Source: Alkalinema sp. FACHB-956
GTDB lineage: Bacteria; Cyanobacteriota; Cyanobacteriia; Leptolyngbyales; Leptolyngbyaceae
NCBI RefSeq assembly: GCF_014697025.1
Contig: NZ_JACJRC010000002.1
Location: 310,001 to 374,000 of the forward strand
Length of the DNA stretch: 64,000 nucleotides
Reading direction: 5' to 3'
Numbering within the stretch: position 1 is the first letter of the stretch; each line of letters opens with the position of its first letter. Under the pieces are notes generated by a model. It was not told the origin of the DNA. It ran no database searches and saw only the letters and a program-made list of their open reading frames with translations. Shown here piece after piece: positions 9,019-28,407 of the stretch. The translations under genes were made by a program, and so were the position numbers.

Positions 9019-9975
9019 GTGTTTACCACCGTTGCACCGACCCAAAATCCCCTACCTCGCGATCTTTTTGCGGCCATTCAAGATCTCAAAAAAGAGCTAA
9101 ATGCCGTGATTTTGGCTCACTATTACCAAGATTCTGAGATCCAAGACATCGCAGACTATCTGGGCGATTCCCTCGGCCTATCCCAACAGGCAGCCCAAAC
9201 CCAGGCGGATGTCATCGTCTTTGCGGGGGTTCACTTTATGGCGGAAACTGCCAAAATTCTCAACCCCGAAAAATTAGTGCTCCTCCCCGATTTGGCCGCT
9301 GGCTGCTCCCTAGCTGATAGTTGTCCCCCAGATGCCTTCGCTGACTTCAAACGGCAGCACCCGGATCACATTGTGATCTCCTACATCAACTGCACAGCGG
9401 AAATCAAAGCGATGAGTGACATCATCTGCACCAGTGCCAACGCCGTCAAAATCGTCAACCAAATTCCCCTGGATCAACCGATCATCTTCGCCCCCGATCG
9501 TAACTTGGGACGCTACGTCATGGAACAAACTGGGCGCGAGATGGTGCTGTGGCAGGGCAGTTGCATGGTGCATGAAACATTTTCTGAGAAAAAACTGATT
9601 GCCCTCAAAATGGCCCATCCCCAGGCAGAAGTCATTGCCCACCCGGAATGCGAAATTCCCCTGCTGAAACATGCCAATTACATCGCCTCCACCACTGGAT
9701 TGCTGAAATATTGCCAACAGAGCCGCAGTTCCTCCTTCATTGTGGTGACGGAACCGGGAATTATTCACCAAATGCAAAAAGCTGCTCCCGATAAGGAATT
9801 TATTCCCGCGCCCCCCACTCAAAACTGTGCTTGTAACGAATGCCCCCACATGCGGTTAAATACATTGGAAAAATTGTATTTAGCTATGAAAAATCGAGCA
9901 CCGGAAATTACCCTCCCGGAGGCAACTAGAGTTGCAGCGCTGCGTCCGATGCAACGGATGTTGGAGATGAGTTGA
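9019..9975 (+). CDS. nadA: Quinolinate synthase
   Basis: This 318-residue [4Fe-4S] enzyme condenses iminoaspartate with dihydroxyacetone phosphate to quinolinate. The core '[20 protein letters not shown]' opens the conserved region. The three presumed cluster cysteines lie in '[14 protein letters not shown]', '[12 protein letters not shown]' and '[17 protein letters not shown]'. I place the start at GTG 9019 ([17 protein letters not shown]) rather than ATG 8926. The intervening 31 residues are AT-rich and unlike the family, promoter-like elements fall inside them, and AAGGA lies about 10 bp before the GTG. The gene is divergent from mutS2. Its product feeds NadC encoded at 3272-4162. Confidence 0.93.
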
Positions 9976-11293: not shown

Positions 11294-11998
11294 TTACTTC
11301 ATCACAGGTTCCTGCGCCAGATCGCCTAGGTCAACGGATTGCAGTAAGCTTTTCCAGTCGTTTTGCACCGCAGGGTTTGGATTTTGTTCCCGCAGATCCG
11401 CAAGGATATTGACCGCTTCCTGCCAAACCCCCGATTCTGCATAGAGGTTGGAATGTTCCTTCACTGGCAGGATTTGTAATTTGCGCTGTACATCCTCCGG
11501 CAAGTTCACCCGCTCAATCCAACCTTCCGTTACCAAATCCCCCGATCGATCGTCCGCATCACAGACGAGGGCAAATTTCCACTGATAGGTTTGCCCAACA
11601 CGCAAGGACTGGGCTGTTTTGGGGATGCTCAAGCGCACGATACCCGCCTTCCCGCTCAAGGCAAAATCCTGGGAATACAGTTCATCACCTTGCTCATTCA
11701 GCAAGACAAACGAGGCAGAGGTGGCACTGGTTTGGGGGACATGCCACATCAACGTGGGATGGTCAGACGTGGTGGTGATGACATTATCTTGGGGCACGAT
11801 CGCTACCACAGAGTCTTGGAGTTTGCGTTGATCAGCCTGTAAAGTTGGGCAAGCTCCACGGGTACCACCGCCCTCCCGACGACCCGGTAACCCACGATTT
11901 TTCGGGGTGAAGCGTTGTGCCGATGCAACATCAGCCAAACTGACAGTCACCAACGTGGCAGCCACAAGGCAGAGCAAACCTGAACGAATAAAACCCAT
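11294..11998 (-). CDS. DUF928-family secreted protein
   Basis: This 234-residue protein has a signal peptide (MGFIRSGLLCLVAATLVTVS with cleavage near ASA-Q). A basic 'GLPGRREGGGTRGACP' segment follows, which is the conserved start of DUF928 proteins. The middle is beta-rich with 'HPTLMWHVPQTSATSASFVL' and 'YQWKFALVCD', and a short helical, tetratricopeptide-like C-terminus includes 'WQEAVNILADLREQNPNPA'. Two cysteines (in GACP and LVCD) may be disulfide-bonded. The family is almost confined to cyanobacteria and its function is unknown. It lies 149 bp downstream of the CHASE2 cyclase on the same strand, and from memory DUF928 genes often occur beside CHASE2, CHAT and two-partner-secretion genes. 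Confidence 0.8.
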   Translation of the reverse strand: MGFIRSGLLCLVAATLVTVSLADVASAQRFTPKNRGLPGRREGGGTRGACPTLQADQRKLQDSVVAIVPQDNVITTTSDHPTLMWHVPQTSATSASFVLLNEQGDELYSQDFALSGKAGIVRLSIPKTAQSLRVGQTYQWKFALVCDADDRSGDLVTEGWIERVNLPEDVQRKLQILPVKEHSNLYAESGVWQEAVNILADLREQNPNPAVQNDWKSLLQSVDLGDLAQEPVMK

Positions 11999-12147
11999 AG
12001 AAGTAACCCACAGTTAGGAACAATAGCAACGCGCTAGGAAATTAACCAGTACATGAACCAGTACCTTGATTGTTTGGGATTGCGAGACTCTCTCAATCCG
12101 GGAATGTCCGGAAAAATAGTTAGAACAACTAGTGGCACTGAGTAGGG

Positions 12148-14073
12148 CTACGGAATCGAGATTGCTACTGGATTCACGGGAACATCTTGATTCGCAACTA
12201 CTCGATAGACATTGACCTGTTGCTGTTTGCCAGCTAATCCAATCATGCCCCACGCTTCCAAGGCAAATTTTTCAGCTAGATATTGTTGGGTGGATTCACT
12301 AATGAGAATACGGCAGGGATCAGGTTGCCGTTGTTTTTCACAACTTTCCAAGCGTGATGCCGTGTTCACCGCATCTCCAATCACGCCATACTCTAGGTGA
12401 TCCCGATTGCCCAAGGTACCAACGACGACGGTTCCTGTACAAATTCCCACCCGCATTTGAATGGGGCCAAATCCCCGCTCTCCCCATTCTTGATTGAGCG
12501 TTTCTAGCCGTTGGGCCATTTCGATCGCGCAGTTCACTGCATCTTGAGCATCCGCCGCAATTTCTTCGGGGGTCGTGCGGGCGATCGGCACACCAAATAC
12601 TGCAAAAATGCCATCCCCCATGAATTTGTTCACAACCCCTTGATGGTGATGAATGGCGGCAGTCATGGTGCTGAGATATTCATTCAACCAGCGCATGAGG
12701 TCAGGGGGTGTCAGATTTTCGGAAATGCCGCTAAAGCCCCGCAGATCGGAAAATAACATGGTTGCTACCACCTGTTGCCCGGTTAAATGGCCGGATTGGA
12801 TCAAATCATGGCGATTTTCCCACAGGGTTTGGGCCACCTTGGGCGACGTATTTTGACCGAGCAACGTCATGGCCATGCGATTTTGGCGTTGTAGCATCTG
12901 GGCACGATAGGCAATCACGCAGCCCCCCCCCGCGATCGCGCTGACGATCGGAGCGACCACCGGAACCCAAAGTCCTTGCGTCAAGGCAATGAAGCCCAAA
13001 CTGGAAGAGGTCGCGAGGATACCGACTTGGACGATCGCCCAGGGAAAAATCCTGCGCATTCGCCAAGCCACAATGGCACTCACAAGCCCCCAAATGGCGA
13101 TCCATAGCCGTTCCGTGCCATTGGAGAACGATCGAATTAAAGGCCGTTTACCACTGGCAGCATCCAGAATTTGGCTGATGGTTTGCCCGTGAACTTCTAC
13201 ACCACTCATTTGGTGCTCATTTTTTTGGCTGGGGCTGTAGGGGGTGTAGAAAAAGTCCTTACTACTGATCGCAACATTGCCAATCAGCACAATTTTGTCC
13301 CGAATCCAGTCCGCGGGGACCTGCCGATCGAGCAATTGCGATAAGGTGACGCGACGACCAACCACTAAATTACGGTAATTCAAGAGAATTTGGTGACCCC
13401 TTGTATCAGCCGTGCGGTAGGCTCCGGCGGTGCTTCCGATCGGCCAAAAGGTACTCTTTCCTAATTTCAAAATCCCCGCTTCTTCGGGACTTTCCTCTGC
13501 CATCACCCCATCTTTTTCTAAATAGGTAAAGGCTAACTGCATTGCAAAGGACGTTTCTTCCTGGGCAAAAATTAACGTCCGCCGCACAACACCATCGCGA
13601 TCGATGGAAATGTCATTAAAACCAATTTGTTCCGGTGGCATTCCGGGTGGGGGCGGAATTTGTTCATCGGCAAGATTGGAAATGCGATGGATGGCCACCA
13701 CATTTTTGGCTTGAAGTTGCTGAAGCAGAGCGGACTGCCCTAGCCCTTGGGGTAAGTCGCGATAGAAATCAAGGCCGATCGCCCGCGGTTTTGCCGCTTG
13801 CAGAATGGCGAGGGTCTCTGCTAAGGTGCGATCGCTAGGGGTGGCGACATTGAGGCGGCGAAGATCGGTCTCGGTGACGCCCACAATCAAAAGACGATCG
13901 TCGGGTTCTTGCCCGGGGCGTAGGCGTACCATCAGGTCATAGGCTCGGAGCTCCAAGGGCTCTAAAATGCCCTTTTGTTCCATTACCAGAATGCTGGCAA
14001 TAATGCTCAAGCTCAGCAAGCTAGCTTTTAAGAGCGGTTTATCTAGGAGTCGGGATAGGGAATGTCGCATCAT
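12148..14073 (-). CDS. CHASE2-domain class III adenylate/guanylate cyclase
   Basis: This 641-residue membrane sensor has an N-terminal membrane helix (about 14-31) and an extracytoplasmic CHASE2 domain (about 40-310, with 'RAYDLMVRLRPGQ', 'RAIGLDFY' and 'GVEVHGQTISQIL'). Three membrane helices (about 322-388), a linker and a class III cyclase domain (about 432-600) follow. The metal-binding aspartates are Asp443 (FSDLRGFS) and Asp487 (GDGIF). Lys483 is the base-selecting Lys, and Asn570/Arg574 are the transition-state residues. The second base-selecting position (563) is Gly rather than Asp or Thr, so the nucleotide preference is uncertain. The product would be cAMP or cGMP. A cAMP phosphodiesterase-like gene lies at 25271. 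Confidence 0.9.
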   Translation of the reverse strand: MMRHSLSRLLDKPLLKASLLSLSIIASILVMEQKGILEPLELRAYDLMVRLRPGQEPDDRLLIVGVTETDLRRLNVATPSDRTLAETLAILQAAKPRAIGLDFYRDLPQGLGQSALLQQLQAKNVVAIHRISNLADEQIPPPPGMPPEQIGFNDISIDRDGVVRRTLIFAQEETSFAMQLAFTYLEKDGVMAEESPEEAGILKLGKSTFWPIGSTAGAYRTADTRGHQILLNYRNLVVGRRVTLSQLLDRQVPADWIRDKIVLIGNVAISSKDFFYTPYSPSQKNEHQMSGVEVHGQTISQILDAASGKRPLIRSFSNGTERLWIAIWGLVSAIVAWRMRRIFPWAIVQVGILATSSSLGFIALTQGLWVPVVAPIVSAIAGGGCVIAYRAQMLQRQNRMAMTLLGQNTSPKVAQTLWENRHDLIQSGHLTGQQVVATMLFSDLRGFSGISENLTPPDLMRWLNEYLSTMTAAIHHHQGVVNKFMGDGIFAVFGVPIARTTPEEIAADAQDAVNCAIEMAQRLETLNQEWGERGFGPIQMRVGICTGTVVVGTLGNRDHLEYGVIGDAVNTASRLESCEKQRQPDPCRILISESTQQYLAEKFALEAWGMIGLAGKQQQVNVYRVVANQDVPVNPVAISIP

Positions 14074-14485
14074 AGCAATCCAGGTAGAACTCTCAATGAA
14101 AGAGCAATTGCAGCCACAAAAATCTGTATTAAGCGTCGTGAAATTGATCTAGCGTGAAATTGATCTAGTGGGAAGCCCAGTGGAGAGGGCCAGTGGAGAG
14201 AGATAGCGGTTGAAATTGCCACTGTACCTGACTCTGGAAATTCTGGAGGAACCCCTGGCCTGATGGATACTCTTCCTGTATCTCTCAAAAAAGTGCACAA
14301 TCTGTTGAACTGGCAGCACTGGTTTGACTCAGTGAACTCATTCAACGCCCTAGACTAAGTTCCATGCCGCTTGATTGTAGGCTGGTTGACTTGAATCAAA
14401 ACACGATAAGCTTGAACGCTAAGAATATATTTGTGAGCGAATCGAACTAGAATTTCAGATTAAAACTTGCAACTAGAATTCATCA
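14074..14485. other. 412-bp intergenic region between cyclase and tpsB
   Basis: Both neighbours are leftward, so the cyclase promoter should lie here. Short duplications are visible (GTGAAATTGATCTAG twice near 14137-14168; CCAGTGGAGAG twice near 14176-14199; AACTAGAATT three times near 14446-14505). No coding sequence or terminator was recognised. Confidence 0.4.
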
Positions 14486-16222
14486 CTAAAATTCATAACT
14501 AGAATTAAAATAAAAGGCAGGTGAGAACGATCGTACTGACCCGATCGATCTCAAAGGCAACGCGACATCCACTTGAAAGGATATCTTTTCAGTGGGTTGC
14601 CAGAGTAAGCCAATCCCAGCACTGCTGATTAATCCTTTTGCATCCTGCGACATGACTCCCGAATGATTCCAGGTAACTCCTAGGTCAAGAAACGGTGATG
14701 CAGTCAAGACCGATCGACCTTTGGCATTTCGTTTGAACACCCACTGCTCCGAAAGTGAAAATGTCACACCATTATCTGTATTAAAAAAGTTCACAGGATA
14801 GCCTCGGAGTGTGGTAGCTCCCCCTGCACTAAACCGTTGGGACGGATGCAGTTCGGTCGAAGCAAGTTGCCAGCTTAGTTCAGCCAATAAAGCATGATTT
14901 TTACCTAACACCAGTTGCCGCTGAAACTGCCCTGACCAAGTAAGAAAACTGGTGGCTTCCGAGGCGGATTCCGTTTGCGTATTGCCCAAATTAAACTGGG
15001 AATTGAGTCGCCAAAAGCCCTGAAAGTCCCGCTTTACAACTTCCTGTCCAAACCGTAGCATCTTGGTCTGACTTTCGCTGGACAAGATATCAGCCACTAA
15101 CGTTTTTCCTCGGCGGTGAATCACGCCTAGGGAAAGGGCAACCTCTTCCGAGGGGATGCGCACGATCGGTTGGCGGAGGGTGATTTCTGCGAGATGGGAA
15201 CTCCCAGTAATGTCCAATTCCTTAAATTCTGGATCGGTGAGCCGGAATTGGTTAGGAGAAAACCGAACTAGCAGCGTTCCTTGTTTGCTATTGAGGGGAT
15301 ATTGATAAATTAAGTTTGCTAGGGCAGATCCGCCCGTGGTGGAACGATCGAAACTGGCAATGACTAAATCGCCAATACCAGACAGGTTGCGGCTGCCAGC
15401 CACAAACCCTAAACTCGTGCGACCGACCGCAGGGGCATTGTGATTACTCACCGTAAATTGCCCAAAGGTGGAAGGTGCTTCTTTGATGCGAATACTGAGA
15501 ATGCTATTCCCAACACTACTGCCTTCCTTCAGAGAAGCCTCAATATTTTCCACTAAGGGGTCGGCACGCAGCAGACGCAAGTGATTTTCGAGTGCCTCTT
15601 GATTGAGGGGCAATAATCCCGCCCGTTCAATCCGTTTGCGCAGGTATTGGGGATTAATCCTTTGGCTGCCTGTAATTTCAATTTTTTCTAACCGCCCCTC
15701 AATTACCTGAATAGCGACCTTGCCATTTTCGATCGTTTGATCTGCGAGAACAGCCCGTGACGTGAGGTATCCATGATCTAGATAGTATCGGGTGACGGCA
15801 TCTGCTGCTTTTTGCAGATCCTCTAGCTTTAGGGTTTGATCTTCATAGGGCTGGGTGACATTGGCCAGTTCCCAAGGTCGAAAAACGGTACTGCCCTTGA
15901 CCTCAAACTGCTGTACATAAACGGTGGGTGAACCTTCGCTAGGGCCAGAAGATACATCTGACGCAGAGGGATGTAACTGAGAAGAGGCTAAAAGAGGTGA
16001 TTGGTTCCGTAAAGGTAAGCTAAGAGGTGCGGTGATCGATGCAATGGGAGGCAAGGCGACTGGGGACTGAGCATCGATGGTCATTCGATCGATGGTCGTT
16101 CGATCGACACTGGTGCGATCGACGGTAGCTAGACAGGGGTGAGCGAGTCCCCCGATCGTAAGAAACAGTCCAAATCCTCCCAATGTGCGTTGCATACGAA
16201 AGATCAAGATTGGCCCATCCAT
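14486..16222 (-). CDS. TpsB-type outer-membrane transporter (ShlB/FhaC/HecB family)
   Basis: This 578-residue outer-membrane pore belongs to the two-partner-secretion system. From ATG 16222 (preceded by AGGTGA, 6-nt spacing) there is a signal peptide ending near 'HPCLA'. A low-complexity Asp/Arg/Thr/Ser linker comes next, then a POTRA_2 domain (starting 'VYVQQFEVKGSTVF', with 'YYLDHGYLTSRAVLADQTIE') and a second POTRA ('GRLEKIEITGSQRINPQYLR'). A 16-strand-type barrel with the L6 motif 'FSAGGATTLRGYPVNFF' ends in a terminal Phe (SSYEF), the outer-membrane signature. The longer GTG start at 16231 adds three residues. The likely substrate is the TPS-domain protein encoded at 20558. It is divergent from the secreted-protein genes to its right. 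Confidence 0.92.
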   Translation of the reverse strand: MDGPILIFRMQRTLGGFGLFLTIGGLAHPCLATVDRTSVDRTTIDRMTIDAQSPVALPPIASITAPLSLPLRNQSPLLASSQLHPSASDVSSGPSEGSPTVYVQQFEVKGSTVFRPWELANVTQPYEDQTLKLEDLQKAADAVTRYYLDHGYLTSRAVLADQTIENGKVAIQVIEGRLEKIEITGSQRINPQYLRKRIERAGLLPLNQEALENHLRLLRADPLVENIEASLKEGSSVGNSILSIRIKEAPSTFGQFTVSNHNAPAVGRTSLGFVAGSRNLSGIGDLVIASFDRSTTGGSALANLIYQYPLNSKQGTLLVRFSPNQFRLTDPEFKELDITGSSHLAEITLRQPIVRIPSEEVALSLGVIHRRGKTLVADILSSESQTKMLRFGQEVVKRDFQGFWRLNSQFNLGNTQTESASEATSFLTWSGQFQRQLVLGKNHALLAELSWQLASTELHPSQRFSAGGATTLRGYPVNFFNTDNGVTFSLSEQWVFKRNAKGRSVLTASPFLDLGVTWNHSGVMSQDAKGLISSAGIGLLWQPTEKISFQVDVALPLRSIGSVRSFSPAFYFNSSYEF

Positions 16223-16583
16223 GGTATTCACCTAGATGATTGGTCACTGTTAGGACTGGTCACTGTGGTAATTGGTGATTGTTAGAACTGATTGTTAGAA
16301 CTGTCTAGATACCTGTGCAGAAATCGATAGAAACCTGCGCATTCCTAGAGTCCTAATCCCAGACTGCCCTCAATTGGCGCTAGACAGATCAATGAGGCTG
16401 AGAAAACTCAACACTCAAGGGAACTCAATCCTGTTGGAAACCAGTATTGCTCATCAGCATCATTATTGATTTCCGTAAAGATGCGGTCGTTCAACCTGAA
16501 ACTCTTCGGTCAGTATAGGCTCACGACTCTCACCCGGAGAGAGTTGAAAAGTTTGTCAGGTATTCATCTCTAGGACATTGTTT
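16223..16583. other. Divergent intergenic region between tpsB and the small secreted protein
   Basis: This 361-bp spacer has short repeats close to tpsB (TTGGTCACTGTTAGGACTGGTC; GATTGTTAGAACT twice near 16277-16303) and should hold promoters in both directions. AGGA at 16572-16575 precedes the rightward ATG 16584 by 8 nt. No further feature was recognised. Confidence 0.4.
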
Positions 16584-17003
16584 ATGCAACGGTTTGTCAA
16601 ATCCTCTTTGGTTATCGCACAGGCTTCGGTTGGTATGCTAGGTGTAATCACCTTGGCAGCGGGCTCTGCATTGGCTGACAATGCATCCGTTAGCGGCTCG
16701 GTTAGCTTCACAACACCAGCAGGTTACACTACATCTTTTTCTGCTGAAAAGGTAGCTCCCACCGGCTATGGCTTTAATGGTGCAGTAACCGTGACTGCGA
16801 TTCCGGGTGCTGCGGATGGAACTCCCTCTGGAATGACTCTGGATAGCACAATGTCTACTGTGGTCGCTAACTCCACTGCTGGTGCGACATTGAAAGAAAA
16901 TGTGCTGACGAAGTTGGGTGGTTTGGATGTGTCAACTAAGAGTGGGTTGGATGCCTACACCGCAATTGTGAAGGCGGCGGCTGGTACTGACGGGCTGGAA
17001 TAG
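16584..17003 (+). CDS. Small secreted protein of unknown function
   Basis: This 139-residue protein starts at ATG 16584; a TTG two codons earlier is less likely because AGGA is better spaced to the ATG. The signal peptide is MQRFVKSSLVIAQASVGMLG followed by VITLAAGSALA, with predicted cleavage before DNASVSGS. The mature part is about 108 residues, rich in Ser, Thr, Ala and Gly, with no Cys, and reads as alternating short beta strands (SVSGSVSFTTPAGYTTSFSA) and a short C-terminal helix. I do not recognise a family. It lies between tpsB and two other secreted-protein genes and is followed by a strong terminator, so it can be expressed separately. A surface subunit or secretion cargo is possible. 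Confidence 0.7.
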   Translation: MQRFVKSSLVIAQASVGMLGVITLAAGSALADNASVSGSVSFTTPAGYTTSFSAEKVAPTGYGFNGAVTVTAIPGAADGTPSGMTLDSTMSTVVANSTAGATLKENVLTKLGGLDVSTKSGLDAYTAIVKAAAGTDGLE

Positions 17004-17087
17004 ACTGATTTGCAAACTGACTCATTGGCGGTATGACTTCCCATCAAGGGAATTTCTCATCCACCTAAATCATGAGAATTGAAACAG

Positions 17088-17118
17088 AAAGGGGCACTCT
17101 AGAGGATGGCCCCTTTTT
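17088..17118 (+). terminator. Rho-independent terminator after the small secreted protein
   Basis: AAAGGGGC (17088-17095) pairs with GCCCCTTT (17109-17116) and the right arm runs into a TTTTT tract. It separates the 16584 gene from the next gene, which begins only 33 bp later. Confidence 0.75.
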
Positions 17119-17150
17119 CAGTTCGCTTTGTTGGGTGAAGGCATTTCCCC

Positions 17151-20100
17151 ATGCGTTATTGTTGGTTTTGGATTAGTGCATCGATCGTTGGTTTAACCTA
17201 TGCGCAGCAGGCTGTAGCAAGAGAAGTGACTCTCTCCCCATCTTCTTCTGTTCTGGAGGCTTCACCAGTAGAACTGCCAGCCTTGTCTGCAGATCATTCC
17301 AGCACGACAAACAATTCCAGCACAGCTAACAATTCCAGCACAGCTAACAATTCCAGCACAGCTAACAATTCCAGCACAGCTAACAATTCCAACACCAATC
17401 CTATTGCATACAGCCAACCTGCATCTTTAATGACTGTCCGGCGTCAGCAAGGACAATCAGCAGCAGGTTTGTTGGAGTTTGCGTCAGAATCATCGGAGAA
17501 TACGGATTCGATCGAACTATCGACCAACAGCCTATCGACCAACAGCTTCCCCAGCGCTGAGGATCCTTTGGTAGGGCAGGTCATTTCAGTGGATACGGCT
17601 ACGAATGCACCCAATTCCTGGTTAGCTTCGCATGCTTGGTTAAAGACGCCAGTGGCCTCACCCCCGCCAGTTCAGCCAGCATCCCCGGTGTCTCCGCCGC
17701 AGTCAACCCCACGTACTCCAGTCCAATCACCCATTGCTTCTTCTCAAACTTTAGCGACTCCTAGGCCAGCAAATGCCTCAGGGGAAGGGCCATCGCGTCC
17801 CTCCGCGCCAACGATCGCGGCCCAACCGATTAATTCTGTAGAAACCGTTCCAACCCTGGAACCTACTGTCCAAGATGGCCGTGTACAGCTTGTCCCCAAA
17901 ACTGCTCCCGGTGCAGAGACCCTGATTTCTCCAGAAGAAGCACGGAAAAATCAGGTCTTTAATGCGTTGTCCAATAGCTCCCAGCGCTATCCGGCCTTAG
18001 TGAACCCCTATGGACGATCGCAGCCTCGGTTGAATTGGTGGGAGCAACGGAAAAAGAGTAATGCAGTCAGCTTAAGTACCTCTTTGGTGGGTCAGCAACT
18101 CACCGTCAAAGATTTTTCTATCACCTCCTTTGCCCCCGATCGCCAGTTGTATTGGATTCTGCCAGGGAACCGAATTGTGGTGGAAACCCAGGGCTGGGTG
18201 GGCGATCTGGACTATTTAGGACGGGCTACCGACACCACGATCGAACAGAAATTTAAAGTGACTCAGCCACTGTGGGGGATGCAAGCAGCATGGATGTTAC
18301 CCCAACCTTTACTGGATTTGATTGATCAAGGGGGGGCGCAAAATACCAGCATTTTATCGATCGCGGGTGAGGTCAATAGTTTAGGCAGTGCAGATACCAC
18401 TTCGATCGTTTTAGATAGCGGTGGGTTTCTATCAGCGCAAAGCAATGGGCAAAGCAATGGGCAAAGTAATGGGCAAAGCAATGGCCAAACCATTCCCCGT
18501 AGTACACCGATCTTGATTCAACCCCCTCGTCCAGGAGAAGCCTCAACCTACAATCCAGAGGGTGGGGGAGCATTGTTTGATTCATTGCTACCAATGAATA
18601 CGCCTAAAATTCTCCAAGCTTTCCCAAGTACTAACTTACAGGTGCTCTTAGAAGGAGAAGGCGTATTTGAAGGAGCCCGCATTGATGCAGCATTGTTAGA
18701 ACAAGCAGGGATTAGCTTTGGCAATCCCTTTACTGGGCAAGGATTTGCCTTCAATCCCGAAGTGACCTCGCTGCCGGGAATCAAAACCCTCCAGCGCGCG
18801 CAATTTGATAATTATGACTTGCTGAATGTTTTATCGAATCCATTTATTAATGAAAAACAGCGGCAAGCCTTTTATCTCAATTCGCTCTACTGGGTGTCCC
18901 TAGGACTGCGGAAGCCTAGAATTTTGGAGACTGCGGTCACCAAAAGCGCTGAAGATTGGTATCTAGCTCGGCTGAGTCGCCCCCATAACCGGACTCTACT
19001 GCAATATGAAAAACAACCCGGCCATGCAACTTACTACAATTTATTTATCAATCCAGGAGTGGCGATCGCCTTTTCCAAGGATGCCAGTGAGTTTCACCAG
19101 GCGCAAAGTATTAATACCAGCCTGGGCTATCTCTTGGGTGGGATTTTCACATTTGTCCATCCCTATCGGTTAGAAAAAAGCCTTTGGGAAGCGAACCTAC
19201 GCCGGAAGCGAGAAGAACCCTTTGCAACACTCAGAACCAACACAACCCTCGAACAGCGCAAGCAAATTAATGCCCGGATTAACCAGTCTCTTAATATCGC
19301 CCAGTTAAGTTCTGGCTTACATTTGGTGTCTGGAGCCTTTACCTACCCCAGCCCGATTACCCCCACGAAATCTCATTTATTTCAAGTCCGTACGGGCACT
19401 CACCGTCGCTTTGTCCGGTTTATCCAAGCGGATCAATCCACGAGATCGGGTGAGATTTATATTTCTAAATTGCGATTATCAGATCAAACCTTTGGGCCGT
19501 TGGCAACGATCGGTCTCCCTGTACCGACTAAACTAACTTCGATCGATAAAGACCGCAAAACCGCTGTCAAAACCATTCTCACGAACGATCGACAAACGGT
19601 TCAGTTTGAATTATCCGACGACTTAAATTTAGTTGCCATTCCCATTGGCATTCGACTCTTTGACATGGCCTTCGATCGCCTAGAACTGTCGCAAATTGGC
19701 TATGTCACGACTGAGTTGCAAAGCTTTGAAGGCTATCTTCAACTCCCAGCAGTAGAAGCGGTGTGGCAAAAATCCAGTGGCAAGTTTTACTATGCAGTGG
19801 CCGCTGGAGCTTGGCTGAATTTCAGTAAAAATGTTGCTCCGAATGTGTTGCGGAATGATATCGGAACACCAGAACCTGGATTTGGATTGTATGCCAATGC
19901 TGTGATGAACTGGTCGAATCCCCAATTCAAACTGAATGCCGATAAAAAAATTGTTGCCGTTACAAATAACATTGTGACTCTGCAACTTTCGTGGAATAGT
20001 GCCCAAACTCGCAATAATCCAGCCTATGCCAACTTCAGTTATGTCCATCTGCGCCAAACGCCATCGGTCAATTACACCCTCAGTGCAGGGTTATTCCTAG

Positions 20101-20444
20101 CGGCCAATTCCCGGGCTGAAAACGGTGAAAAATCAGTGACGCTCACCAATTTTTTAACGGGACAATTTAACTTTGCTTCAGGATTCGATTTGAACACCTC
20201 GTTAGAAATCAGCGATCGGGGATATTTCACCTTAGAAGCCATGCAGTCGATCAGTCCCCGCTGGTCATTGGGAGCCTATTACCAAAATTATCAAACTCGC
20301 ACCGGATTAAACCGCCGTCTGGATGGCTCCCAAGTTGGGGTGATTATCCAGCGCCGTAGCCGTAAGGGCAATACCTGGCAATTGCGGATAGGACGGCAAC
20401 GGGAAGATTGGGAATTCCAATTGCAAGGGGATTTTCGGTTTTAG
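17151..20444 (+). CDS. Large predicted outer-membrane/surface protein, unrecognised family
   Basis: This 1097-residue protein has a signal peptide (MRYCWFWISASIVGLTYAQQ, cleavage near AVA-RE). A long low-complexity Ser/Thr/Asn/Pro linker (about 25-260) follows, including five SSTANN repeats and a Pro-rich stretch. The rest is mainly beta: the last ~400 residues alternate aromatic/hydrophobic strands and turns (for example 'YFTLEAMQSISPRWSLGAYY') and the protein ends '...WEFQLQGDFRF' with a terminal Phe, typical of outer-membrane barrels. A QSNG repeat lies near residue 430. It sits just before the TpsA-CHAT gene on the same strand. I know no family for it; a barrel or surface scaffold acting with the exoprotein is inference. 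Confidence 0.65.
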   Translation: MRYCWFWISASIVGLTYAQQAVAREVTLSPSSSVLEASPVELPALSADHSSTTNNSSTANNSSTANNSSTANNSSTANNSNTNPIAYSQPASLMTVRRQQGQSAAGLLEFASESSENTDSIELSTNSLSTNSFPSAEDPLVGQVISVDTATNAPNSWLASHAWLKTPVASPPPVQPASPVSPPQSTPRTPVQSPIASSQTLATPRPANASGEGPSRPSAPTIAAQPINSVETVPTLEPTVQDGRVQLVPKTAPGAETLISPEEARKNQVFNALSNSSQRYPALVNPYGRSQPRLNWWEQRKKSNAVSLSTSLVGQQLTVKDFSITSFAPDRQLYWILPGNRIVVETQGWVGDLDYLGRATDTTIEQKFKVTQPLWGMQAAWMLPQPLLDLIDQGGAQNTSILSIAGEVNSLGSADTTSIVLDSGGFLSAQSNGQSNGQSNGQSNGQTIPRSTPILIQPPRPGEASTYNPEGGGALFDSLLPMNTPKILQAFPSTNLQVLLEGEGVFEGARIDAALLEQAGISFGNPFTGQGFAFNPEVTSLPGIKTLQRAQFDNYDLLNVLSNPFINEKQRQAFYLNSLYWVSLGLRKPRILETAVTKSAEDWYLARLSRPHNRTLLQYEKQPGHATYYNLFINPGVAIAFSKDASEFHQAQSINTSLGYLLGGIFTFVHPYRLEKSLWEANLRRKREEPFATLRTNTTLEQRKQINARINQSLNIAQLSSGLHLVSGAFTYPSPITPTKSHLFQVRTGTHRRFVRFIQADQSTRSGEIYISKLRLSDQTFGPLATIGLPVPTKLTSIDKDRKTAVKTILTNDRQTVQFELSDDLNLVAIPIGIRLFDMAFDRLELSQIGYVTTELQSFEGYLQLPAVEAVWQKSSGKFYYAVAAGAWLNFSKNVAPNVLRNDIGTPEPGFGLYANAVMNWSNPQFKLNADKKIVAVTNNIVTLQLSWNSAQTRNNPAYANFSYVHLRQTPSVNYTLSAGLFLAANSRAENGEKSVTLTNFLTGQFNFASGFDLNTSLEISDRGYFTLEAMQSISPRWSLGAYYQNYQTRTGLNRRLDGSQVGVIIQRRSRKGNTWQLRIGRQREDWEFQLQGDFRF
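17295..17396. repeat. 18-bp tandem array (SSTANN codons)
   Basis: About five copies of AATTCCAGCACAGCTAAC occur in the linker of the 1097-residue protein. The unit is a multiple of three and the copies are nearly identical, so expansion is recent. Confidence 0.9.
18441..18489. repeat. 12-bp tandem array (QSNG codons)
   Basis: AGCAATGGGCAA is repeated about four times within the same gene, encoding SNGQ units. The frame is kept. Confidence 0.9.
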
Positions 20445-20557
20445 GGGAGTCGTGGTTTGGGGCATGTTAAGAAGTGGTCGATCGTAGCAATGAACAGGCT
20501 TCATCGATCGACCAATGACAACGATCGACCCCACTGCAATTTTCCGAAGGGTGCACC

Positions 20558-23500
20558 ATGGGAAACTGGACTGGTTTAATTTACATTCTAGTGGGCGGCA
20601 GTGTCCTCGGACTGGCCTGTATCCCTGTCAGTGCACAGGTTACGCCCGATGGCTTGGGCACCCAAGTCACCACCACCGGCAACCAAATCGAAATTCAGGG
20701 AGGCACTCGATCGCGCAATGGCGATAACCTATTTCATAGCTTCGATCGCTTCAATCTCAATTCTGCACAAACTGCCAATTTCCAGGTAGAGGCCGCCACT
20801 CGCAATGTATTTGCGCGCATTCGAGGGGGTGAAGCTTCCATCATTGACGGGTTACTTAAGCTGAGTGGTGGTTCAGCCAATTTGTACTTAATGAATCCAG
20901 CGGGAATGTTCTTCGGCCCCAATGCACGGCTCAATCTACCTGCGATGTTTTCCGCAACCACGGCAACGGGGATTGGGTTTGAGCAAGGTCGCTGGGAGAT
21001 CCAATCCAACGGGTCTCCAGACCAGTTCACCAGTGCTCCCACGTCTTTCAGCTTTGCGCTCTCCCAACCCGGCGCGATCGTCAATACCGGCCATCTCGCA
21101 GTACAGTCTGGCCAAGCCCTGAACCTATCAGCGGGCACGATCGTCAACACCGGAACACTGCAAGCCCCCGGCGGCCAAATTACCCTGACAGCGGTTCCCG
21201 GTGGCCAGCAGGTGCGCCTGAGTCAAACGGGCAGCGTCCTGGGGTTGGAACTCTCGACCCAGCAGCCGATCGCCCAGTGGACTCCGGAAACGATCGGGCA
21301 ACTCCTAACCAAAACCCAAAACATTCACCACGCCACGCAACTCGAAACAACCCCCGATGGCAAAATTCATCTCAAAGGCTCTGGTACAACAATCTCGCCC
21401 AATTTAACTGCTGGAACAGTGGTTCCTGGAACGGTGGTTTCTGGAACAGTGGTGGCATCGGGCACCTTGGATACGGCTTCAACGGGGCAGGGCGGACGGG
21501 TGGAAGTGCTGGGCGATCGGGTTCAGGTGGCTCAGGCAACTGTAAAAGCCGATGGGCAAACCGGGGGCGGGACGATTTTGATCGGTGGAGAAAAACAAGG
21601 TCAGGGCCGACGGATTAACGCAATCACCACCGAGGTCGATCGCCACAGTGTGATGACGGCCAATGCAGGGCAGCAGGGCAAGGGCGGACAGGTGATTGTC
21701 TGGGCCGATCGGGATACGCAATTTGCGGGAACCATTCAAGCTCAGGGCGGCCAACAGCAGGGTGATGGCGGATTTGTGGAAGTGTCGGGCAAGCAGCGCC
21801 TCCGCATGGCCGGATCTGTGGATGTTGGCGCACCTCAAGGGAATTTGGGTCAGGTTTTGTTAGATCCCACGGATATCCTGATTAGTAAAACGGGGAGCAA
21901 TACTTTACCCGATGCAAATTCTCCGGATAGTACCTGGACGATTAGCCCCGATGCGCTCTCAACAATCACTGGCAATATTACCCTCACCGCCGATCGCAGC
22001 ATTTGGTTTCAAACCAATCCCAATAGTTCTGACAATACGGTTGCTTTGGGATCGGGCGGACAAATTACGTTTCGGGCAGGGACAGAGTTTCGATCGGATG
22101 TGGGGTTGACCAGCGAAGGTCGATCATTACTGATTCAAGCACCCAAAATTCAGCTACAAACCATCAATACATCCCTGGCCCAAAATCGACAGGGATCGGT
22201 AACCCTCCAAGGTTTACCCAGTGATGAGATTATCAATTCTTCTAGTGATTCTTCTAGCAATGCTTTAAATTCTAAAAAATCGGTTCAGGTCAGTTTTCGG
22301 AACATTATTACCCCTGGCCAAGATGTCACGATCGATGCCGATCGCATCAATGGCGATCTAATTTTAACATCTGCGACCGATAAAGTATTAACGACTGGTA
22401 AGGTGAGATTAACTGGAACCCGCAACTTAAGTGTCTCGGGGGTCATTACCCAAGGGCAAGATGTGACGTTGACCAGTCGCTTAGATCAGACCTCTGGACA
22501 GATTCAAACGGGGCCAGTTATTACCTTTGGGGGCTCTGTACAAATGACTGCCAATCGAATTCAAGCGGGTTTGATTTGGACCACACCTAACGGCACAACG
22601 AGCCAATTCGATCGGGCGGGAAATATTACATTGCAAGCGAGTACCGATCTCATGGCTCGCCACTTAGAAGCTAATGGCCAAGGGCCAGGACGGGCAGGCG
22701 ATATTCGTTTAATCAATCCTTCTGGCGATATCATTGTAGATAGTATCCAAGCCTATGGCGGGAGCGGGGGCGGTAATGTAGACCTTCAGGGAGATACCAT
22801 TCGCATCGTCGGTGCACGCTATGAGAGCAACGCTAACAATAGTCAAGGCGCGCCGACCTATGAACCGAGTAGTATCAAAGCGGGGGAATCCCTCACCATT
22901 ACTCAACGGGGGGGGCCTACGAACCAGCCCTTCATTGTTGGAGATGCCAGTTTGAATGGTAGCAACCGCAAAATTGTTGTTGCAGGTCAAGCGATAGAAG
23001 GCGGATCATTTGCGATTCAAAACCAAACGGTTCAATATCAACCGCTCAAAAACTTTACCCTCACAGCGGAGAATCAGAGTCCCTATTTTCCCAATTTAGA
23101 TGGAGCAGATTTCCTCTACAAAACCGTCGATCCAGGAAGTCGTTCTGTTTTTACCTTGGCAGAGTTAGGATTTACGAATCCAGTCGATCCCGATCGCGAT
23201 CAAGTGCAAGTTTATCTTCGTCCCGTGAATCCAGGGGGCCAAGGGATTGGACAACTGTTTGATGCCACCGGACGCCTGATTACTAGTACCACGCCAATTC
23301 GGTTAACCGATCGGCTAACCTATGTTGCACCCAGCAATGGAGCAGATTCTACCCGGTTTGAAGTCCTTGCTTTAGATGGCACTCGGACTGAGGCGTCACT
23401 CGCAACCGCCCCTCGGGTTTCGCTGCTGCTCTCAGCGCCCCTAATACCCACAGTGGAACCACCTGTTCCAGAAACCAATTCCACCAAAATTTCCCTAGAT

Positions 23501-24721
23501 ATGGGAACCTCGCTGTCCAATGTTTCTTTGGAAGAAGCTTCTCGCGTCGATAATCAGCTCAGCCAAGAATTTATTGCCGTATTTGGGGGTGAATTGCCTA
23601 AGTTTGTCGATGGAGCAGAGTTAGTTCGCCAAATTGAAAAACAGTTGAAAATCCGGCCTGCGCTCGTCTATCTGCGGACGCAAATGAACGAATTAGAACT
23701 CACCTTAATTACAGCGAGGGGACGCTTTCGGAAACGGGTGGTGATTAGTCGCGATCGTCTATTAGATTTAGTCAAAACCTTTCGCCGGGAAGTGACTAAT
23801 CCCTTAAAGACCCACAGTACCAGCTATTTAGCCAGTGCTCAAAAGTTATATGAGTGGATAATTACTCCCCTGAAGACTGATTTGGAACAACAGGGGATTA
23901 CGAATATCGTCTTTCTCCCTGAAGCGGGGTTACGAGCCTTGCCCTATGCCGCACTCCATGATGGGCAGAAATTTTTAATTGAGCAATACAGTGTGGGGTT
24001 GATGCCTAGTGTTGGGTTAACCCAAACTAACTACTTCGACCTGCGCCGGAGCCGTGTCCTGGCGATCGGAATTTCTGAAGTGACCCAAGGGCAAACGCCG
24101 CTACCCATGGTGAAAACGGAATTAGCCACCATTGCCCAACTCTGGAATAAGCAAACCACCTACCTCAATCAAGAGGCTACCTTGAATAATCTGAAAACCG
24201 CACGACAAAAACAGGATTTTCAAATTGTGCATGTGGCAACCCACGCCAACTTTACCGCTGACTCTCCTAAAGATGCTTACATTCAACTCTGGAACGATCG
24301 CTTGAAGCTCGAACAAATTCGTCAATTGGATTGGAATAACCCCGCCGTGGAATTGTTAGTTCTGAGTGCTTGTCGAACGGCATTGGGCAATCGCGATGCA
24401 GAATTAGGGCTAGCGGGACTTTCGCTACAAACTGGGGTCAAAACTGCGGTGGCCAGTTTATGGTACGTCAATGACACCGCCACCATGTCACTTATTAGTC
24501 AGTTCTACCAATCCATGCGCACCTCTCCGGTGAAAGCGGAAGCTCTGCGGCAAGCCCAGATAGCCATGGCTCGCGGAACCCTGCGCTTCAAAGAGGGCAA
24601 AATTACTGGCCTCTCTTCTGCACAAGACATCGACATTCCAAACGCTCAAACGGTGAGTGACTCTAGTTTCAAACATCCCTACTATTGGGCTGCGTTTACA
24701 ATGATTGGTAATCCTTGGTAG
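20558..24721 (+). CDS. TpsA-like exoprotein: filamentous-haemagglutinin N-terminal (TPS) domain plus C-terminal CHAT domain
   Basis: This 1387-residue protein has a signal peptide (MGNWTGLIYILVGGSVLGLA, cleavage near VSA-Q). The TPS secretion domain (about 30-250) has 'FHSFDRFNLNSAQTANFQV' and 'SANLYLMNPAGMFFGPNARL', the latter the NPNG-type motif. A beta-helix-like Gly/Asn/Ser-rich body extends to about 830, then a beta-sandwich-like region to about 965. A C-terminal CHAT domain (about 980-1387) includes 'IVFLPEAGLRALPYAALHDG'. The caspase-like dyad is present: His1229 in 'VHVATHANF' and Cys1272 in 'LVLSACRTALG'. Export is presumably through the TpsB encoded at 14486-16222. A protease role is predicted from the dyad only; no substrate is evident. 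Confidence 0.88.
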   Translation: MGNWTGLIYILVGGSVLGLACIPVSAQVTPDGLGTQVTTTGNQIEIQGGTRSRNGDNLFHSFDRFNLNSAQTANFQVEAATRNVFARIRGGEASIIDGLLKLSGGSANLYLMNPAGMFFGPNARLNLPAMFSATTATGIGFEQGRWEIQSNGSPDQFTSAPTSFSFALSQPGAIVNTGHLAVQSGQALNLSAGTIVNTGTLQAPGGQITLTAVPGGQQVRLSQTGSVLGLELSTQQPIAQWTPETIGQLLTKTQNIHHATQLETTPDGKIHLKGSGTTISPNLTAGTVVPGTVVSGTVVASGTLDTASTGQGGRVEVLGDRVQVAQATVKADGQTGGGTILIGGEKQGQGRRINAITTEVDRHSVMTANAGQQGKGGQVIVWADRDTQFAGTIQAQGGQQQGDGGFVEVSGKQRLRMAGSVDVGAPQGNLGQVLLDPTDILISKTGSNTLPDANSPDSTWTISPDALSTITGNITLTADRSIWFQTNPNSSDNTVALGSGGQITFRAGTEFRSDVGLTSEGRSLLIQAPKIQLQTINTSLAQNRQGSVTLQGLPSDEIINSSSDSSSNALNSKKSVQVSFRNIITPGQDVTIDADRINGDLILTSATDKVLTTGKVRLTGTRNLSVSGVITQGQDVTLTSRLDQTSGQIQTGPVITFGGSVQMTANRIQAGLIWTTPNGTTSQFDRAGNITLQASTDLMARHLEANGQGPGRAGDIRLINPSGDIIVDSIQAYGGSGGGNVDLQGDTIRIVGARYESNANNSQGAPTYEPSSIKAGESLTITQRGGPTNQPFIVGDASLNGSNRKIVVAGQAIEGGSFAIQNQTVQYQPLKNFTLTAENQSPYFPNLDGADFLYKTVDPGSRSVFTLAELGFTNPVDPDRDQVQVYLRPVNPGGQGIGQLFDATGRLITSTTPIRLTDRLTYVAPSNGADSTRFEVLALDGTRTEASLATAPRVSLLLSAPLIPTVEPPVPETNSTKISLDMGTSLSNVSLEEASRVDNQLSQEFIAVFGGELPKFVDGAELVRQIEKQLKIRPALVYLRTQMNELELTLITARGRFRKRVVISRDRLLDLVKTFRREVTNPLKTHSTSYLASAQKLYEWIITPLKTDLEQQGITNIVFLPEAGLRALPYAALHDGQKFLIEQYSVGLMPSVGLTQTNYFDLRRSRVLAIGISEVTQGQTPLPMVKTELATIAQLWNKQTTYLNQEATLNNLKTARQKQDFQIVHVATHANFTADSPKDAYIQLWNDRLKLEQIRQLDWNNPAVELLVLSACRTALGNRDAELGLAGLSLQTGVKTAVASLWYVNDTATMSLISQFYQSMRTSPVKAEALRQAQIAMARGTLRFKEGKITGLSSAQDIDIPNAQTVSDSSFKHPYYWAAFTMIGNPW

Positions 24722-27135: not shown

Positions 27136-28407
27136 TTAACTCCCAAACCCTTTGCCCCGACCATGACTGGCGATCGTCAAGCAGGCATTTAACTGCTGCC
27201 GGAGCGCATCATGATCGAGGTTTTGGCCAATGAGAACTAGTTGATTTTTGCGATCGTTAGTTTTCCACTGATCATCATCCAAGGAAAACCGTTTACCACT
27301 CAAATGGAAGATATGCCGCTTAGGGCTTTCTTCAAACCAAAGAATCCCTTTAGCTCGGAATACGTTTTCTGGCAGTTGATTGTCGAGGAAGTACTGAAAC
27401 TTTTTAATCGCAAAGGGGCGATCGCTTTGGAACGATAGGGATGTAAACCCATCCATTTCCAAGTGGTCGGAGTGGTGATGGTGGTGATGATGGTCATGAT
27501 GCTCGTGATGTTCATGCTCACAATGCCCATGGTCATGATCGCAGTTGGAATGATCGTGATGATCGTGATGGTGTTCATGATCACCATGATCGTGTTCACA
27601 ATGACCATGGTCGTGATCACAATTGGAATGATCATGGTGGTCATGGCTGTGGTCATGGCTGTGATCATGCTCGTGGCTGTGATCGTGGCTAGAACCATGG
27701 CTAGAACTGTGGCTGTGACCGGCGTGCTCTAACGCTTTGGGCTCAGTCTCAAAATACTTATCAGACTCAAATAGCCCCACGCTCAGCAGCAAAGACAGCG
27801 GCACATTCCCTTTGGTTGTGCGGAGAATGCGTGCGCCTTCCTTCATTTCCCGCACCCGCACTTCCAACAAATCCAAGTCTGCTGAATCGACGAGATCTGC
27901 TTTGTTCAGCAAGATGATATCGCCATAGGCCAGTTGGCTGTAAGCGGCTTGGCTGTTGAATAGATCAACACTGAAGTTTTCAGAATCGACAACGGTAATA
28001 ATGGAATCCAGTCGGGTCAAATCCCGCAACTCACTCCCCAAAAACGTCAAAGCCACCGGGAGTGGGTCAGCTAAACCCGTCGTCTCCACCACGAGATAAT
28101 CAATCTTGTCCGATCGCTCTAGCACTTTGTAAACTGCGTTAACCAAATCCTCGTTAATGGTGCAACAAATACAACCATTGCTGAGCTCCACCATCGTATT
28201 GTCTTCGTCCGTTTGGATAATTAACTCATTATCGATGCCAATCTCGCCAAACTCGTTGACCAATACCGCTGTCTTGACCCCCTGTTGATTGGACAAAATA
28301 TGGTTGAGCAGGGTGGTTTTTCCACTCCCCAAAAATCCGGTGATGATGGTGACGGGCATCCCCGTTTTAGGCGTATCCATTTTGTCGAGAACAGCAACTG
28401 AAGACAT
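27136..28407 (-). CDS. CobW/COG0523 metal-chaperone GTPase with long His-rich segment
   Basis: This 423-residue G3E-type GTPase has Walker A 'GFLGSGKTT' (24-32), the metal-binding CxCC motif 'GCICC' (78-82), the 'VVETTGLADP' switch region and 'LLNKADL' (NKxD). The CobW C-terminal domain follows (about 325-423). Between them, roughly residues 228-315 are a His/Asp/Glu-rich segment with four extra cysteines. It contains a duplicated block (HSNCDHDHGHCEH occurs twice). Such proteins insert or deliver zinc or cobalt; the His-rich loop suggests metal storage or buffering. The gene is followed by the [2Fe-2S] protein gene. No Zur box was identified upstream. Which metal is used cannot be told from sequence. 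Confidence 0.9.
   Translation of the reverse strand: MSSVAVLDKMDTPKTGMPVTIITGFLGSGKTTLLNHILSNQQGVKTAVLVNEFGEIGIDNELIIQTDEDNTMVELSNGCICCTINEDLVNAVYKVLERSDKIDYLVVETTGLADPLPVALTFLGSELRDLTRLDSIITVVDSENFSVDLFNSQAAYSQLAYGDIILLNKADLVDSADLDLLEVRVREMKEGARILRTTKGNVPLSLLLSVGLFESDKYFETEPKALEHAGHSHSSSHGSSHDHSHEHDHSHDHSHDHHDHSNCDHDHGHCEHDHGDHEHHHDHHDHSNCDHDHGHCEHEHHEHHDHHHHHHHSDHLEMDGFTSLSFQSDRPFAIKKFQYFLDNQLPENVFRAKGILWFEESPKRHIFHLSGKRFSLDDDQWKTNDRKNQLVLIGQNLDHDALRQQLNACLTIASHGRGKGFGS

Follow-up and report, generated by a model that had tools for sequence, protein, structure and literature searches.

A cyanobacterial gene cluster joining a candidate extracellular-tube operon with two-partner secretion and a CHASE2 adenylate-cyclase sensor

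PDB entry 9BTQ, with the molecule name 'pilin', is the extracellular tube subunit of Microcystis aeruginosa PCC 7806SL. In the open literature one subunit of a cyanobacterial extracellular tube has been solved, but no described machinery for such tubes was found, and neither was a paper on 9BTQ or on the Microcystis extracellular tubes. Chaperone-usher pili offer an analogy, as they combine small secreted subunits with a dedicated large outer-membrane barrel that carries a plug-like insertion. In two-partner secretion of the FhaB/FhaC type, a TpsB transporter with POTRA domains and a barrel is paired with a TpsA exoprotein that contains a TPS domain. In the CHASE2-DUF928 neighbourhoods of cyanobacteria, DUF928 lies directly beside CHASE2; one such cluster was previously noted in Nostoc punctiforme (PMC5587647).

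A cluster of six genes with likenesses to these systems was analysed in Alkalinema sp. FACHB-956. The window, meaning the whole stretch of 64,000 nucleotides (C2:310001-374000), belongs to a nearly complete host genome of 6.16 Mb, and a check of its open reading frames placed all six genes where the earlier note had located them. The cluster is composed of two divergent arms. The minus strand carries the genes encoding a DUF928 protein, a CHASE2-cyclase and TpsB, and the plus strand carries those encoding a small exoprotein, a large barrel and a TPS-CHAT exoprotein. Promoters for both arms are expected, from the gene arrangement, in the intergenic region between the TpsB gene and the small gene (16232-16577); promoter and terminator scans of the cluster gave nothing above chance.

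The DUF928 protein (11294-11998, minus strand; Pfam PF06051, E 1e-58) has a signal peptide, is predicted to be periplasmic or secreted and is a partner of CHASE2 sensors. The adjoining gene (12148-14073, minus strand) encodes a CHASE2 sensor (PF05226, E 1.2e-61) fused to a class III adenylate-cyclase domain (PF00211, E 4.2e-26) with intact catalytic motifs (FSDLRGF, NKFMGDG and GDAVNTASR). DUF928 is thus placed directly beside CHASE2, as in the neighbourhoods noted earlier, whereas here the association has been measured as a general one and is joined to an appendage operon. The third gene (14486-16231, minus strand) encodes TpsB, a two-partner-secretion outer-membrane transporter with POTRA domains (POTRA_2, PF08479, E 2.4e-23), a barrel (ShlB, PF03865, E 6.7e-16) and the (V/L)RG(Y/F) motif in the form LRGY. 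The TPS exoprotein (20558-24721, plus strand) contains a TPS domain (PF05860, E 3.6e-39) with an NPAG motif, at the same locus as TpsB and two genes apart from it, and a C-terminal caspase-like CHAT domain (PF12770, E 1.1e-67). In this putative protease the CHAT His-Cys dyad is intact (HVATHA at 1225 and LVLSACRTALG at 1267). In contrast to the FhaB/FhaC type, this TpsA ends in a CHAT domain, and the small and barrel genes lie between its gene and that of TpsB. The closest TPS-CHAT copies found (51%) are that of genome G290 and that of the tube locus of genome G015. The open literature yielded no paper that treats CHAT together with two-partner secretion in cyanobacteria.

The small gene (16584-17003, plus strand), for which a start at ATG 16584 is more likely than one at TTG 16578, encodes a signal peptide and a domain of about 110 amino acids with a C-terminal AAAGxxGLE motif. 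Pfam and NCBIfam gave no match for this protein or for the 1097-aa barrel protein, and Pfam assigned no family to 43 relatives of the small protein. In the AlphaFold model, whose pLDDT is 80-96 for the greater part of the domain, four main strands are combined with a pair of helices at the C terminus. When this model was compared with 350,542 PDB chains, only 9btq matched meaningfully, at Foldseek rank 1 with E 0.036; the VIA Z was a modest 5.4, with an rmsd of 7.2 over 106 residues. The window protein is a distant relative, with about 22% identity to the Microcystis subunit in the structural alignment. By sequence, the window protein on its own gives no match to 9btq, and the link runs through the family and the model. 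The first profile of the small family and three single sequences did not recover 9btq, which was recovered once the profile took in divergent relatives. The resulting profile of 32 members, which includes the window protein and was gathered before any Microcystis sequence was known in the analysis, matches 9btq over nearly its entire length (E 1.4e-10), and a single divergent family member used as a query matches it with E 1.1e-15. The homology covers the full domain, and the two also have a signal peptide and the C-terminal region in common. Descent of the small family and the Microcystis tube subunit from a common ancestor is well supported.

Small-family loci contain one to five tandem copies of the gene, or genes encoding proteins with two to four repeats. 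Relatives with two to four repeats stand beside single-domain copies at L096:10577-12211, L105:8660-10261, L149:14440-16029, L146:1578-2669 and L150:10992-14293, and these fused forms are perhaps tip, base or cross-linking subunits.

A terminator-like hairpin with a T run (17086-17118, plus strand; -22.3 kcal/mol, z -4.15) lies between the small and barrel genes. It was missed by the terminator scan because its loop is longer than the limit of that scan. Hairpins of this kind occur 3' of 21 of 65 small-family genes, against 0.65 expected from shuffles. Judged from the sequence, the hairpin is likely a partial terminator that would yield the small protein in excess over the barrel, which fits a structural subunit that is needed in excess.

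The next gene (17151-20444, plus strand) encodes the 1097-aa partner of the small protein. Its residues 1 to about 220 form a signal peptide and a low-complexity linker, and AlphaFold predicts one large outer-membrane beta-barrel from about residue 303 to 1097 (mean pLDDT 78, pTM 0.66), with more than 20 strands and, between strands, a low-confidence plug-like insertion and three helices. The C-terminal residue is Phe, with which outer-membrane proteins typically end. Fold searches returned generic barrels only (Z up to 13.8). In contrast to chaperone-usher loci, the six genes show neither an usher nor a PapD-like chaperone domain in Pfam; the barrel itself has no Pfam family, and Pfam on 27 of its relatives gave no family and no usher match. 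Two tandem repeats are present in the barrel gene, one of period 18 in its N-terminal part (17296-17395), where it encodes a linker of NNSSTA type, and one of period 12 (18437-18489) that encodes QSNG within a loop. Both resemble variable spacers that relatives lack.

Across 390 genomes of the class, the barrel gene is present in 34, the small gene in 33 and both in 32 (P 2e-43), so that 32 of the 35 carrier genomes have the pair. The two genes lie within 5 kb of each other in 29 of 34 genomes and within 1 kb in 23. The use of the Microcystis sequence as a query adds a 33rd genome with both. A small gene without a barrel gene is found in G290, where the contig stops just past the small gene; a barrel gene without a clear small gene is found in G247; and in G006 the two are 4 Mb apart. 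The distribution of the pair is patchy (20 of 160 genera). Barrel carriers include records of Leptolyngbya, Phormidium, Alkalinema, Fischerella and Nostoc, and Fischerella sp. PCC 9431 is one strain with both genes. Among 58 related genomes, barrel relatives were detected in six, the host included, and the small gene adjoins them in most. This near-obligate partnership, together with the size and the plug-like insertion of the model, suggests that the barrel is likely an export or anchoring platform for the tube.

The barrel is tied to an observed tube by a gene run of the Microcystis lineage. This same-strand run opens with two genes that share 77-80% identity with 9btq and continues with two GT41-type glycosyltransferase genes, a short open reading frame and a gene of the same barrel family as that of the window. 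No TpsB, CHAT or cyclase gene was seen beside these genes, where GT41-type glycosyltransferases are found instead. The same holds more widely, as the small-barrel pair has no adjacent TpsB, CHAT or cyclase gene in most of its carriers, and these genes are therefore accessory to it at best. Other neighbours of the pair include genes for DUF4347/RTX or Calx-beta exoproteins, TPR-GT41 proteins and GT2/methyltransferases. The system encoded here is real and conserved, and probably a largely undescribed surface appendage.

GT41-type (OGT-like) glycosyltransferase and GT2/methyltransferase genes lie beside the tube genes of Microcystis and Nostoc relatives at L167:1848-9440, L151:2841-6710, L048:16513-20925 and L091:11062-16068, which suggests that the tubes of these organisms are glycosylated. 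In one genus of the same family, large exoproteins are encoded beside the small genes (L040:13087-17964, L047:13716-18638, L051:12979-17190 and L089:4499-9502). The two of these that were scanned contain DUF4347 with RTX, cadherin or Calx-beta repeats.

The remaining genes of the cluster belong to a second, recurrent neighbourhood. The host genome contains 18 CHASE2, 38 CHAT, 7 POTRA_2, 22 TPS and 12 DUF928 places. Ten of the 12 DUF928 genes lie no more than 5 kb from CHASE2 (chance 0.029 per gene, P 3e-14), eight lie that close to CHAT, and 11 lie that close to at least one of CHASE2, CHAT, TPS and TpsB. In relatives, 20 DUF928 genes were chosen by score and contig position, blind to their neighbours; CHASE2 was present in 12 of these regions and TpsB in five others. 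One or the other was thus found in 17 of 20, whereas 20 arbitrary regions taken from genomes of this kind had neither (P 2.6e-8). The statement in the earlier note that DUF928, CHASE2, CHAT and TPS genes tend to cluster in cyanobacteria is borne out by these counts, from which it follows that DUF928 has two habitual partners, CHASE2 and TpsB. DUF928, a family of unknown function, thereby gains a firm partner in the CHASE2 sensors. In several relatives, at L110, L116, L119 and L122 (near position 9600), DUF928 is next to TpsB with no CHASE2 or TPS exoprotein within about 10 kb, which suggests that it also serves two-partner secretion.

Contiguous clusters of all six genes occur in the window and in G015, that is, in two genera and two gene orders, as the cyclase and DUF928 genes of G015 are downstream of TPS-CHAT and not of TpsB. 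In G290, the DUF928, cyclase, TpsB and small genes run up to the contig end, and the best TPS-CHAT begins another contig. In G010, one short contig carries TpsB, the small gene and a frameshifted barrel gene, while another carries a broken TPS-CHAT with CHASE2 after it. All six are probably present in both genomes, split by contig ends. The broken barrel and TPS-CHAT frames of G010 (contigs C296 and C318; L042 and L181) belong to a low-coverage draft and reflect either decay or assembly error. In G031, TpsB, the small gene and the barrel gene are present and TPS-CHAT is absent nearby. The TpsBs of five tube loci form one clade (100/100) that excludes the remaining TpsBs, among them the six further copies in the host, and the DUF928 and CHASE2 copies of three sampled tube loci likewise form clades (100/98 and 100/99, respectively).

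The joint six-gene cluster is a lineage-specific state of two conserved modules. Whether these modules act together bears on the strongest alternative, according to which the tube pair and the DUF928-CHASE2-CHAT/TPS genes are independent and share a site for surface genes. The usual occurrence of the pair without the other four genes, the DUF4347 exoproteins or GT41 glycosyltransferases that adjoin it in other lineages and the nine other DUF928-CHASE2 sites of the host, none with tube genes, are all in keeping with this reading. Against it, the six genes stay together in two genera, and probably in four genomes, despite a changed order, and the tube-locus copies form exclusive clades; on balance such independence appears unlikely. 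The linkage of the cluster genes is conserved far above chance, and the separate phylogenetic histories that the earlier note had named as a refutation were not seen.

A second alternative assigns export of the small subunit to TpsB and leaves the large barrel as an anchor or porin. The single clade of the five tube-locus TpsBs is compatible with it, as is G031, which keeps TpsB with the small and barrel genes but has no adjacent TPS-CHAT. It is improbable, since most genomes with the small and barrel genes have no TpsB nearby and a TPS domain is lacking from the small protein. Lower still in probability is a barrel acting as receptor or pore for a soluble small ligand or toxin-like partner with no appendage, which the tight gene pairing and the differing copy number and repeats of the small genes would also allow. 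Against it stand the homology of the small family to a protein whose solved structure is an extracellular tube, and the tandem or multi-repeat copies and the hairpin, which fit a structural subunit.

The cluster is probably a surface-tube system that has a dedicated outer-membrane barrel and, in addition, a CHAT exoprotein of the two-partner type and a sensor with an adenylate-cyclase domain. In this system, the small protein would be exported by Sec and then polymerise outside the cell into a tube like that of its Microcystis relative. The barrel would be the dedicated outer-membrane component of the tube, most likely the exit channel or platform for subunits as well as the tube anchor, and the hairpin would keep the subunit in excess over it. 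TpsB would secrete the TPS-CHAT exoprotein, a pairing suggested by adjacency and by the clade, to the surface, where its role may be to process the tube, to decorate it or to act on adjacent cells. The CHASE2 adenylate cyclase and its periplasmic DUF928 partner would convert an envelope signal into cAMP. In cyanobacteria, cAMP governs pilus-dependent motility and surface behaviour, and the gene content suggests that it may control the operon. A bolder proposal, held tentatively and at somewhat less than an even chance, is that the barrel family represents an undescribed pathway of tube secretion and assembly unrelated to ushers, two-partner secretion and type IV pili, which has here recruited a CHAT exoprotein and a CHASE2 adenylate cyclase as a switch.

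The earlier note was right in placing the products at the envelope with a cyclase sensor among them, and its description of the large protein as barrel-like agrees with AlphaFold. Its proposed function, a surface protease or self-recognition system, stands only in part: with its dyad intact, the CHAT exoprotein could be a surface protease, self-recognition finds no support, and the appendage core was missed. That core, the tube-subunit family and the barrel, is present in most genomes without protease-like or cyclase genes.

Candidate tube machinery can now be named, namely large barrels without a Pfam family that are accompanied by the subunit in almost every carrier genome. The accessory genes vary with the lineage: they are TPS-CHAT and a cyclase in this one, glycosyltransferases among Microcystis and Nostoc relatives and DUF4347 exoproteins elsewhere. 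Tube biogenesis and regulation thereby become testable by gene deletion as a genetic system. Elsewhere in the window, an open reading frame at 27136-28407 encodes a protein that, as a guess from its sequence, is a CobW-like GTPase, with a very long His-rich stretch.
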